From Flagellimonas okinawensis (GTDB lineage Bacteria > Bacteroidota > Bacteroidia > Flavobacteriales > Flavobacteriaceae), in the NCBI RefSeq assembly GCF_029194005.1, contig NZ_JARFVA010000001.1, forward strand, positions 620,001-684,000: a DNA stretch of 64,000 bases. The letters run 5' to 3'. Under the pieces are notes generated by a model, which ran no database searches, was not told the origin of the DNA, and was given only the letters and a program-made list of their open reading frames with translations. Positions 3,593 to 37,182 of this stretch are shown in pieces; the first letter of the stretch is position 1, and each line of letters begins with the position of its first letter. A program made the translations under genes and the position numbers.

Positions 3593-4795
3593 ATGAAACT
3601 TACAACTAAATATAACTCTGGACCTCGTTTGCTCATATTGATTGCATTAATTATTTCCAGCTGTAAAACCGAAAATAGTGCAGCGATCAATCAAGTTGAT
3701 GAAATAATCACATCGATACAAGAGACATACGCCCCAGATAAAAGGGTGGCTCTTTTTGATGTTCAATCCGAAAAGAAATCTACAGGATATGTTTTAAGGG
3801 GAAAGACCAACCTGCCTGAGGCCCTTGACAACCTTAAAAATGAATTGGAAGCTCAAAAAATCAATTATACCGATAGCATTACACTACTACCTTCAGCCGA
3901 TCTTGACGGTAAATTTTATGGTGTCATCTCCAACTCGGTTGCCAACATAAGGTCCAAACCCTCGCATTCGGCAGAATTGGTCACACAGGCCACCTTAGGA
4001 ATGCCCTTGAATGTATTTCAAAAAGAAAGAGGTTGGTATCTTATTCAAACCCCCGACAAATATTTAGGATGGGTAGATAGTGGAGGTTTGACTCTTATGG
4101 AAAAGAACGATTTTGATTCGTGGCAAGCAGATAAAAAATTAATATACACCCACACTTATGGGAAATCCTATGAAGATGCTGATGAAACTTCCCAAGTAGT
4201 TTCCGATGTAGTGGCCGGGAACATTTTTAGTTTAATGGCGGATAAGGGTGCATTCTATAACGTACAGTATCCAGATGGTAGAAACGCTTTTATATCCAAG
4301 ACAGAAGCCGAACCCTTTGAGGCATGGAAATCCAAATTGACCTTTGAAACGGATAATTTGGTCGAAACATCCAAAACGATGCTTGGTGTTCCCTATTTAT
4401 GGGGCGGAACTTCCACAAAAGGGGTGGATTGCAGTGGTTTCACTAAAACAATCTATTTTATGAACGGTATGATCATTCCTCGTGATGCATCCCAACAAGT
4501 GCATGAAGGTACCTTAGTGGACGACTCCAAGGAGTTTGATAAACTTATTCCCGGAGATCTTCTCTTTTTTGGTCGCAAAGCTACGGACTCCACCACCGAA
4601 CGTGTAGTGCATGTAGGAATGTGGATCGGCAACAATGAGTTTATCCATTCATCGGGCAAGGTACGTATTAGTAGCATGGATCAAAATGCAGAAAACTTTG
4701 ATCAACCCAATTATGATCGCTATTTACGCACTAAACGTATTTTAAACAATACCGATGAGGGGCTTATCTATTTAACTAAAAAAGAGATTTTTTAA
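3593..4795 (+). CDS. SH3 + NlpC/P60 murein endopeptidase lipoprotein
   Basis: A 400-aa lipoprotein (signal plus lipobox IISSC, lipid Cys C24). Residues about 107-170 form a bacterial SH3-like domain (VANIRSKPS...GWVDSGG), a second SH3-like stretch covers about 185-240, and the NlpC/P60 papain-like domain fills about 255-385 with the catalytic triad C280 (GVDCSGF), H340 (VVHVGMW) and H352 (FIHSSG). The SH3-SH3-NlpC/P60 order is that of YkfC-type gamma-D-glutamyl-L-diamino-acid endopeptidases, which cut murein stem peptides and release L-Ala-D-Glu, the substrate of the epimerase two genes upstream. The gap to the previous gene is 67 bp and contains a weak promoter-like sequence (TTATTTTG at 3547-3554), so it may be partly independently expressed. 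Confidence 0.88.
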   Translation: MKLTTKYNSGPRLLILIALIISSCKTENSAAINQVDEIITSIQETYAPDKRVALFDVQSEKKSTGYVLRGKTNLPEALDNLKNELEAQKINYTDSITLLPSADLDGKFYGVISNSVANIRSKPSHSAELVTQATLGMPLNVFQKERGWYLIQTPDKYLGWVDSGGLTLMEKNDFDSWQADKKLIYTHTYGKSYEDADETSQVVSDVVAGNIFSLMADKGAFYNVQYPDGRNAFISKTEAEPFEAWKSKLTFETDNLVETSKTMLGVPYLWGGTSTKGVDCSGFTKTIYFMNGMIIPRDASQQVHEGTLVDDSKEFDKLIPGDLLFFGRKATDSTTERVVHVGMWIGNNEFIHSSGKVRISSMDQNAENFDQPNYDRYLRTKRILNNTDEGLIYLTKKEIF

Positions 4796-34631: not shown

Positions 34632-35246
34632 CTAGGTTTTCCGAATAATGGTCCTAAATGTAAGGTTGATACGGGCCGTATTGACCTTTTTAGTAGGAGG
34701 CAAACGATGATGCCAATACTCCTGAGTTTCTCCTTTCATGAGCAATAAACTCCCATGGTCCAGAAATAGCTCTGTTTTTTCTTTGGTGGTTTTGTGCTTA
34801 AAGGCAAATTTACGCTCCGACCCCAAACTAAGAGAGGCTATTGCACCATGCTGTTTCAGTTCCTTTTCATCATCGCTATGCCATCCCATCCCTTCTTCTC
34901 CTGTATGATATAAATTGAGCAGGCACGAATTAAAGGCTTCATGTGTTTGCTTTTCGACCAGTTCCTTTATTTCCAGGAGTTCTGGTGTCCAAATTGATGC
35001 CTTTTTGGTGTTTTTTGAATAGGTGTATTTAAAGGGTTCATCGCCAAACCAAGCCACTTTTCGCTTGGTCACTATTTGTTTGCCGAACATTTGGACTACA
35101 TCATGTTCCCAAGGCATATGATCCAACAATTGTTGAAAATAGAAATCTGCCTTTTCTTTATTCAGTATGGGGCCAAAATAATTGACAATGCCATCTTTTG
35201 GCAAGATATTTTGGGTTGAATCAATCTGGCTGGTAAATAAATCCAT
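34632..35246 (-). CDS. AlkB-type 2-oxoglutarate/Fe(II) dioxygenase
   Basis: A 204-aa protein of the AlkB family. Iron ligands H123 and D125 (GWHSDDE) and H180 (EYWHHRLP) are present with the 2-oxoglutarate-binding R192-x5-R198 (ARINLTFR). AlkB enzymes repair alkylated bases in DNA or RNA by oxidative demethylation; the layout is closer to eukaryotic ALKBH2/3-like members than to E. coli AlkB (no nucleotide-recognition-lid detail can be judged). It starts 17 bp after the stop of the WYL regulator gene, so the two are probably co-transcribed, which hints at a DNA-damage or stress context. Confidence 0.88.
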   Translation of the reverse strand: MDLFTSQIDSTQNILPKDGIVNYFGPILNKEKADFYFQQLLDHMPWEHDVVQMFGKQIVTKRKVAWFGDEPFKYTYSKNTKKASIWTPELLEIKELVEKQTHEAFNSCLLNLYHTGEEGMGWHSDDEKELKQHGAIASLSLGSERKFAFKHKTTKEKTELFLDHGSLLLMKGETQEYWHHRLPPTKKVNTARINLTFRTIIRKT

Positions 35247-35263: not shown

Positions 35264-36220
35264 TTATTGCGTTAACCTTTCTTGGCTTTTAGCCATTATT
35301 TCCAATACACGCTCTTTTAGTACTTCAGGTTCCAGTATTTTGGCGTAATCGCCAAACATCACATACCAGCGGGAAAATCCATTTTTCCAATCGGTAGTCA
35401 TAAAAGTCATCTCTATTTCGTTTCCCTTCGCCTCGCTGGAAACCAATCCATAATACTTGGTTTGTCCTTGAATATATTTGGCAACGGTCTTGTCCACCAA
35501 AATCCTAACTTTGGTTTTTTCAACTTCTTCCTTTCTATTTCTGTGCTCATCAATGGTTCCATGCTCTAACAAAAAATCCAGCGAAGTCCTTTCTATTTTA
35601 TGGATTCTATCCGTTCTAAAATGTCGGTAATCCGTCCGTAAATGGCAATACCCCAAAATATACCAAAATCCGTTTTCATTAAAAAGACCAACGGGTTCTA
35701 TCTTTCGCTCCGATGGGTATTCTTCCCTCAACGATTCATACCGCAAAAATACTTGCTTACGTTCCGCAATACTCTCAAACAAAATTTCCAAGGCATTGGG
35801 AACCTCATCATTAAACAGCTCTTGTCCTGGAACTATCGACACTTGGGATTCCAAAGCTTCCACCCAATCTTTTTCGCTGCCCCTAAGGACTGATTTTAGT
35901 TTGAACATTGCCGATTCATAATAGGCACCAAGGGATTTATCGGTAAATTGTTGCATCAGCTTTTCTGCGGCCACAAAACTTCCAGCTTCTTCACGAGTAA
36001 ACATTACCGGCGGCAATCGATACCCCTCCATAATAGAATAGCCAACCCCAGCTTCGCTTACAATAGGGACCCCAGAAGCTTCCAAGGTTCTAATATCCCT
36101 GTAAATGGTACGCAGGCTCACCTCAAATCGGTCTGCGAGTTCCTGTGCCTTTACAATCCGCTTGGTTTGTAGCTGAATCAAAATGGCAACTATCCTATCA
36201 AAACGTTTTACGGTATCCAT
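35264..36220 (-). CDS. WYL-domain HTH transcriptional regulator (YafY-type)
   Basis: A 318-aa regulator: an N-terminal winged HTH (about 5-60 from the chosen ATG; KAQELADRFEVSLRTIYRDI, the HTH_11 motif), then a WYL ligand-binding domain with the FxxPxxLFNENGFWYILGYCH stretch and a C-terminal WCX region. Several starts are in frame (36292, 36226, 36220); the ATG at 36220 fits the usual family N-terminus (D-x-V-K-R-F-D-R). It is divergent from the DinB gene, with a 245-bp shared region that carries two identical palindromes, its probable binding sites. WYL proteins sense nucleic acid ligands or second messengers in several studied cases; the ligand here is unknown. Confidence 0.87.
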   Translation of the reverse strand: MDTVKRFDRIVAILIQLQTKRIVKAQELADRFEVSLRTIYRDIRTLEASGVPIVSEAGVGYSIMEGYRLPPVMFTREEAGSFVAAEKLMQQFTDKSLGAYYESAMFKLKSVLRGSEKDWVEALESQVSIVPGQELFNDEVPNALEILFESIAERKQVFLRYESLREEYPSERKIEPVGLFNENGFWYILGYCHLRTDYRHFRTDRIHKIERTSLDFLLEHGTIDEHRNRKEEVEKTKVRILVDKTVAKYIQGQTKYYGLVSSEAKGNEIEMTFMTTDWKNGFSRWYVMFGDYAKILEPEVLKERVLEIMAKSQERLTQ

Positions 36221-36348
36221 TCCCATAATTGCGTGAGCTATCTCCCAAAGATAGGATTTCAATCCAAGCAAGGGAGGTGATTTCCAGCTCATCTCATTTC
36301 ATTTTAATTAATCGATCAGGTTTATTGAACAAAACTATTCTTGGTCAA

Positions 36349-36364
36349 TGACAACAGCCTGTCA
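36349..36364. promoter_or_regulatory. Palindromic operator candidate 1 (TGACA-N6-TGTCA)
   Basis: TGACA (36349-36353), six spacer bases and TGTCA (36360-36364) form a perfect inverted repeat between the divergent WYL regulator and DinB genes. The same half-sites with the same spacing recur 47 bp downstream, which is very unlikely by chance. Confidence 0.6.
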
Positions 36365-36395
36365 GCATCCTTTTTTTTGACTTGTTTTTTACTGC

Positions 36396-36411
36396 TGACA
36401 CGGGGCTGTCA
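36396..36411. promoter_or_regulatory. Palindromic operator candidate 2 (TGACA-N6-TGTCA)
   Basis: TGACA (36396-36400), CGGGGC, TGTCA (36407-36411). It ends 11 bp before the -7 box at 36423, so it covers the -33 region of the DinB promoter, and a bound protein would either block or replace the -33 contact. Confidence 0.6.
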
Positions 36412-36422
36412 CCCACCCCTCC

Positions 36423-36430
36423 TAACTTTG
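36423..36430 (+). promoter_or_regulatory. -7 promoter box of the DinB gene
   Basis: TAACTTTG is an exact TAnnTTTG match, 35 bp upstream of the ATG at 36466. No TTG is found at the -33 distance; the palindrome lies there instead, consistent with regulator-dependent activity. Confidence 0.5.
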
Positions 36431-36966: not shown

Positions 36967-37182
36967 ATGACCGTCCATGTGTTCAAAACATCTGTAAAAC
37001 GAAAAGGTGAAGTGAACCAACTTCGTCCGTGGCTGAACAGATTAATAGACAATAAGGGTTGTTGGAATTTTGACCTTGAAGATTGCGACAATATTCTCCG
37101 GGTAGAAACCCAGAGCCTGAACATTCCAACAATTACTTCCTTGCTGCAAAACAACGGCTACCAATGTGAAGAATTGGAGTAA
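36967..37182 (+). CDS. Small conserved protein partnered with DinB (ferredoxin-like/HMA-like fold)
   Basis: A 71-aa soluble protein beginning 3 bp after the DinB stop, so translation is coupled. Its beta-alpha-beta-beta-alpha-beta pattern (VHVFKTSV; WLNRLIDNK; CWNFDLEDCDNILRVET; ITSLLQNNGYQCEEL) resembles the HMA/ferredoxin-like fold but lacks the MxCxxC metal motif. Similar small proteins recur in Flavobacteriaceae; no function is known to me. A terminator follows at once, so this is a two-gene transcript. Confidence 0.72.
   Translation: MTVHVFKTSVKRKGEVNQLRPWLNRLIDNKGCWNFDLEDCDNILRVETQSLNIPTITSLLQNNGYQCEELE

Follow-up and report, generated by a model that had tools for sequence, protein, structure and literature searches.

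Two identical perfect palindromes in the intergenic region between a gene for a WYL-type regulator and a divergently oriented dinB gene raise the question of which protein binds them and whether this protein blocks or drives transcription. The locus is part of a stretch of 64,000 nucleotides from Flagellimonas okinawensis (assembly GCF_029194005.1, contig NZ_JARFVA010000001.1, positions 620,001 to 684,000, forward strand), hereafter the window, in which all positions are counted. An earlier note on this DNA described twin exact TGACA-N6-TGTCA palindromes 47 bp apart, the second one covering the −33 region just before an exact −7 box (TAACTTTG), and suggested duplicate operators, autoregulation of the WYL gene and control of dinB together with the following gene for a 71-amino-acid (71-aa) protein. 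With a probability of about two in three, we favor the reading that a homodimer of the WYL protein would occupy both palindromes, each of them built at a fixed position into one of two divergent promoters, and would activate transcription under stress through contact with RNA polymerase.

Both palindromes were confirmed as exact, with starts 47 bp apart, and palindrome 2 covers the −33 region before TAACTTTG as described. Counted from the conserved WYL start codon at 36226, the intergenic region measures 239 bp instead of the 245 bp given previously. In addition, the minus strand has a −7 box of its own (TAGTTTTG), unreported in the earlier note. In the whole genome (4,020,037 bp) the exact pattern TGACA-N6-TGTCA occurs at these two sites and at no others. 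Because the reversed pattern, used as control, also has two exact matches in the genome, the number of sites is not above chance, and it is their pairing and placement that are unusual; by our arithmetic, the chance of two random sites lying ≤63 bp apart in 4 Mb is about 3e-5. Degenerate sites with up to two mismatches were not enriched in the window (15, including the two exact ones, versus 30.8 expected). The site number, equal to that of the reversed pattern, speaks for chance occurrence, or for inverted repeats at the RNA level (hairpins), in both cases with no regulatory role. We give this explanation next to no credence, as the palindrome is kept in all related loci with a nearly fixed promoter register, and both predicted transcripts start downstream of the palindromes and so contain neither of them. 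Judged by their sequence, palindromes and boxes together are a real operator-promoter design.

According to PMC9723704, the −7 element TAnnTTTG of Flavobacterium psychrophilum occupies −12 to −5. Therefore, each palindrome would span approximately −39 to −24 relative to the start that it serves, its inner half-site TGTCA covering about −28 to −24. The transcription starts are predicted at about 36435 for dinB, 31 nt ahead of the ATG, and at about 36325 for the WYL promoter P1.

A regulator-based scan yielded 52 related loci; counts of 53 comprise these and the window. At least one exact palindrome was found in 52 of 52, so that the site does recur upstream of orthologous WYL/DinB pairs. On the dinB side, the site is separated from TAnnTTTG by exactly 11 nt (N11) in 48 of 53 loci, by N11 with one mismatch in three and by N10 in two, which supports its place at the −33 region of the operon of dinB and the 71-aa gene. 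In 40 of 53 loci the WYL side has a second exact site as well, with TAnnTTTG at the N11 offset being exact in 19, carrying one mismatch in 17 and two in 4; locus L010, with one half-site mismatch in its WYL-side site, is outside the 40. The distance between both sites ranges from 38 to 415 bp in the 40 two-site loci. Because this distance varies while that to the own −7 box hardly does, each site appears to belong to its own promoter. From the former idea of duplicate operators, the conserved sites tied to the WYL gene remain, but with one element per promoter; a duplicate or cooperative operator was rejected because of the spread of the distances, although 36 of the 40 are at 45–51 bp. Also, autoregulation was retained in part. 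The WYL-side site fits it in lineages with the divergent layout, but it is not general, since 12 loci have the dinB-side site alone, among them those of Pontibacter and Chryseobacterium and every one of the seven from Flavobacterium. In 10 of these 12 (exceptions L032 and L043) dinB is not divergent and lies beyond the 3′ end of the WYL gene.

The register was also analyzed beyond these loci by searching TGACA-N6-TGTCA-N(1-25)-TAnnTTTG in 395 Bacteroidota genomes. Among the 110 matches, 79 were at N11, 8 at N12 and 6 at N10, and no other spacing had more than 4; the 79 are distributed over 57 genomes in 17 families, a few single ones possibly by chance. The reversed pattern with a spacer of 1–25 bp gave 12 matches in total in the same genomes, and a control with a 7-bp spacer within the palindrome gave 21, none of them at 9–14 bp and thus no peak at N11. 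In the window's genus, 55 of 60 sampled genomes carry an N11 site. Alignment of 76 N11 sites revealed a C-T-R-C preference ahead of the fixed letters, an A+T-rich tract further upstream, and a C directly after TGTCA in two thirds of the sites. The 6-bp spacer is asymmetric, and for 76 of 76 sites its orientation correctly predicted on which side the −7 box lies (leave-one-out, relatives included).

With winged helix-turn-helix (HTH), WYL and WCX domains, the regulator fits the HTH-WYL-WCX (YafY-like) class, and its closest solved sequence relative is PafBC (6sj9). The arginines expected at the WYL ligand site of single-stranded-DNA-sensing activators (PafBC, DriD, SiwR) are present as R201, R204 and R207, invariant in 53 of 53 sequences; in 19 phylum-wide sequences the three positions are R in 19, R in 17 and K in 2, and R in 19, respectively. 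The equivalence of R204 and R207 to residues of SiwR, a mycobacterial WYL regulator discussed below, is by motif and not by alignment with SiwR. The genome encodes one clear WYL regulator, in addition to one PF13280 match just at cut-off on another contig. With orthologues called at E ≤ 1e-50, 21 of the 41 sampled genomes of the window's family have an N11 site together with the regulator and 19 lack the two, with one genome having the site only and none the regulator only (Fisher p = 8e-11, without phylogenetic correction). Based on site conservation, N11 register and family co-occurrence, the palindromes are very probably the landing sites of the WYL protein, one per back-to-back promoter.

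Binding by another regulator, for example a LexA-like SOS repressor of Bacteroidetes, would make the WYL gene a mere neighbor. The combination of dinB and alkB lends this a plausible link to DNA damage, and the noncanonical Bacteroidetes LexA, in the same phylum, has a stress regulon with palindromic operators, but it differs in motifs and protein family, and its dinB is a polymerase and thus another protein (PMC8565304). The LexA-like boxes GGA-N5-TCC and CTAA-N5-TTAG are both absent from the 239-bp intergenic region; the surrounding 3 kb contain one GGA-N5-TCC (0.76 expected) and no CTAA-N5-TTAG. Furthermore, site and WYL orthologue co-occur nearly perfectly in the family, and in several fetched loci of the window's genus an N11 site lies ahead of a GyrI-like/Cass2 gene with another, shorter WYL gene near. 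We therefore consider a different binding protein very improbable. In one locus of this genus (L165:1021-2403), the operator-promoter design recurs where another WYL gene adjoins a GyrI-like/Cass2 gene.

A WYL protein bound to both palindromes could also be a repressor that blocks polymerase at −33 until a stress ligand releases it, so that the regulator gene would be negatively autoregulated and dinB induced. Divergent repressors that control their own genes are common, and a protein sitting over the −33 region would be in the way of polymerase. However, a blocker needs no exact distance, yet the N11 matches span 57 genomes of 17 families; also, the polarity of the site is tied to the −7 box, no −33 TTG is retained for blocking, and 12 loci lose the WYL-side site while the dinB-side site stays. 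Furthermore, the register equals that of the activator sites of PafBC. In Mycobacterium tuberculosis these are given as TGTCGG, TGTCAG or TGTCAC followed by N10-TA-N3-T, with directionality being essential (PMC8151990), and also as tTGTCRgtg-8 nt-TannnT (PMC5656591), and PafBC is described to insert between DNA and sigma domain 4 (PMC11804915). Both window promoters match the PafBC-type pattern TGTCR-N11-TANNNT. Taken together, we regard repression as unlikely; the fixed register, the polarity and the missing −33 TTG favor activation.

Regarding the last of these arguments, a TTG 17–23 bp ahead of the −7 box was found in 0 of 101 operator promoters versus 27 of 146 other TAnnTTTG sites, the latter being any non-coding TAnnTTTG 12–150 bp before an open reading frame (ORF) in the fetched loci and not mapped promoters. 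As promoters without TTG at the usual −33 distance, they most likely have polymerase recruited or steadied by the regulator.

Several observations weigh against this reading. The known phage-defence WYL regulators are repressors (PMC10693628). The missing TTG is modest evidence, since TTG is infrequent in the background, the palindrome letters bar some spacings and the sequences are related; moreover, TTG is found 14 bp from the −7 box in 62% and 25 bp from it in 19% of the operator promoters, at positions that fall within the palindrome or at its border. The −7 boxes on the WYL side are imperfect at the N11 offset in 21 of 40 loci, and the relatedness of the sequences means that the counts are not independent. 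Phylum-wide, the association of site and regulator is looser: both are present in 40 of the 395 genomes, the site only in 17, the regulator only in 29 and neither in 309, so that no close orthologue accompanies the N11 site in 17 of 57 genomes, and no exact N11 site accompanies the orthologue in 29 of 69. The site-only genomes of the phylum may be served by other WYL regulators. Finally, the promoter of SiwR has a conserved GGA at −26 (PMC10693628), where TGTCA is found in the window.

In the mechanism of activation proposed here, the WYL protein would bind both palindromes as a homodimer, each of them sitting in place of the −33 element of one of the two divergent promoters, and would recruit or steady RNA polymerase, similar to the activation by PafBC or DriD. 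Stress, probably in the form of single-stranded DNA, would be sensed by the WYL domain. Thereby, dinB and the 71-aa gene would be turned on, and the regulator would switch on its own gene together with alkB in a positive feedback, with basal regulator supplied from a second, proximal promoter, P2. All features of the locus are listed in Table 1.

Table 1. Features of the WYL-dinB locus, with positions in the window
Feature	Position	Strand	Remarks
Palindrome 1, TGACA-N6-TGTCA, TGACAACAGCCTGTCA	36349..36364	−	Minus-strand reading TGACAGGCTGTTGTCA; −33-region element of WYL promoter P1
Palindrome 2, TGACA-N6-TGTCA, TGACACGGGGCTGTCA	36396..36411	+	−33-region element of dinB promoter
−7 box TAACTTTG, dinB promoter	36423..36430	+	11 bp downstream of palindrome 2
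−7 box TAGTTTTG, WYL promoter P1	36330..36337	−	11 bp from palindrome 1; sequence and pattern search
−7 box TATCTTTG, putative proximal palindrome-free WYL promoter P2	36246..36253	−	20–27 bp before WYL start codon
WYL regulator, 320 aa from conserved ATG	35264..36226	−	PF08279 (HTH_11), PF13280 (WYL), PF25583 (WCX), all above cut-off
AlkB-like 2OG-Fe(II) oxygenase	34632..35246	−	PF13532; below AlkB equivalog cut-offs; 17 bp past WYL gene, same strand
DinB-family putative metalloenzyme, 165 aa	36466..36963	+	PF05163; not DNA polymerase IV
71-aa protein	36967..37182	+	Starts 3 bp past dinB; predicted ferredoxin-like (HMA-like) fold

The box TATCTTTG was read as the −7 element of P2, a putative promoter that has no palindrome. 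TAnnTTTG is at the identical place in 40 of 53 loci; if any place up to 60 bp ahead of the start codon is allowed, it is present in 48 of 53, among them every one of the 40 loci with two sites. The region overlaps a frame with an ORF start at 36292, which would give the WYL protein an N-terminal extension with the apparently conserved GLKSYLWEIAHAIMG. Around TATCTTTG, third codon positions of this frame are conserved, and locus L032 retains the P2 box despite an in-frame stop breaking the frame; the extension was therefore rejected as probably not coding in favor of P2, although one broken frame is thin evidence and an extension elsewhere is possible.

By analogy, the closest known system is the SiwR-dinS operon (msmeg_1357-56) of Mycobacterium smegmatis, in which a WYL gene is divergent from DinB-superfamily genes with a palindrome between them, as in the window (PMC10693628). 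According to this source, SiwR is a proven activator of the divergent dinB-like operon, the −26 promoter region is required for induction, and the protein binds as a homodimer to a promoter palindrome between −35 and −10; the WYL protein of the window probably is a homodimer, too. In contrast, the SiwR operator is described as a 19-bp imperfect palindrome instead of TGACA-N6-TGTCA, its promoter is of the −35/−10 type and not TAnnTTTG, and the account presents one operator without an autoregulatory second site (PMC10693628), while there are two sites here. The locus may work like that of SiwR but was not classed as such because of TGTCA instead of GGA at −26.

PafBC promoters (RecA-NDp/P1) share with the window the TGTCR-N11-TA register, a direction-dependent motif and an HTH-WYL-WCX protein (PMC5656591, PMC8151990, PMC11804915). 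PafBC, however, is a heterodimer with only PafB touching promoter DNA (PMC12340889), whereas a single WYL gene and a perfect palindrome point to a homodimer here; a pair of PafB- and PafC-like genes was not found, with one WYL gene at the locus and the borderline second match on another contig. In addition, PafBC controls many repair genes, and few targets were seen here. DriD of Caulobacter crescentus is reported as a homodimeric WYL activator with a pseudo-palindrome over the −35 region of poor promoters, one of them bidirectional (PMC12340889, preprint). Its site comprises about 20 bp with CGACA/TGTCG half-sites in the probe used (PMC12340889), compared with the perfect 16-bp palindrome of the window. 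The three DriD promoters printed there have a TG(T/G)CG inner half-site, 11 nt and then CAA, which is a lead only.

The elements of the locus are thus of a known kind. New, as read from the DNA, would be a perfect palindrome of the homodimer type that each of two divergent Bacteroidota promoters with a TAnnTTTG box carries once, in a register common with an actinobacterial system. Searches of an open-access library yielded neither a paper on this operator nor a published operator of any Bacteroidota WYL regulator. Tentatively, and as a possibility slightly short of even, there might be a Bacteroidota-wide, LexA-independent promoter class CTRC-TGACA-N6-TGTCAC-N10-TAnnTTTG. At such promoters, WYL homodimers would take the place of the contact that the housekeeping sigma factor otherwise makes with the −33 element, and their targets would be small stress proteins (DinB, glyoxalase-like, GyrI-like/Cass2, YdeI-like and the HMA-like 71-aa protein); the register, identical to that of PafBC and perhaps also to that of DriD, would then reflect one ancient mechanism of WYL-driven sigma adaptation across phyla. 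Few of the many WYL regulators have been characterised, and the fixed register provides a readable DNA signature for listing their targets in Bacteroidota. Also, it enables a direct test of how general the mycobacterial sigma adaptation is, and it would place functionally uncharacterised proteins, those of the DinB superfamily and the HMA-like 71-aa ones, under shared control.

Downstream of the 79 N11 matches, 76 unique contexts were used for calling of target genes, of which four had no downstream ORF; Pfam was scanned mostly with one member per target cluster. The remaining 72 ORFs comprise 27 of the DinB family, 14 of a 115-aa family without known name, seven glyoxalase-like ones (two clusters), four GyrI-like/Cass2 ones, two which we take to be YdeI-like (no Pfam match), two encoding the 71-aa protein alone and 16 singletons, the window's own WYL gene among them. 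Having its own operator in two genomes, the 71-aa gene seems to be a true target and not a passenger.

The nearest solved relative of the window's DinB protein is the DinB/YfiT protein 6iz2. For the 71-aa protein no match was found in Pfam or NCBIfam. Its structure model, with a predicted local distance difference test (pLDDT) score of 85.6, has Atox1 as top fold match (template modeling score TM 0.79, E 1.1e-3), and the protein is thus predicted to resemble HMA-type copper chaperones in fold; a CxxC pair is absent from its sequence. W33-N-F-D-L-x-D-x-D is invariant across 32 aligned sequences of this protein.

On the other side of the locus, the alkB-like gene is probably part of the WYL operon because it follows the WYL gene on the same strand after 17 bp. 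It adjoins the WYL gene in 13 of 52 loci, but in only 12 of the 39 with a second exact site, and was therefore rejected as a general reason for the WYL-side site.

The 115-aa family (L115:5065-5412 and 13 similar ORFs, L116-L129) has no Pfam match and occurs in three families of the phylum. Its N11 site is mostly TGACACTATG(T/C)TGTCA, usually about 30 bp ahead of the start, and the fetched stretches of these loci contain no WYL match to our profile. In one distant Bacteroidota genus, recA is preceded by an N11 site in 3 of 3 genomes (L112:3949-3983 and 4079-4279), but recA is unsafe as a target, as in L112, the sole locus scanned, site and gene are separated by a cobalamin riboswitch on the opposite strand. 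In one genome, an N11 site whose spacer agrees well with the consensus precedes uvrB (L104:2862-4886, Pfam) by 115 bp, and a recR-like gene (L130, identified by eye) with an N11 site was seen once; each of these may be chance or a lead.
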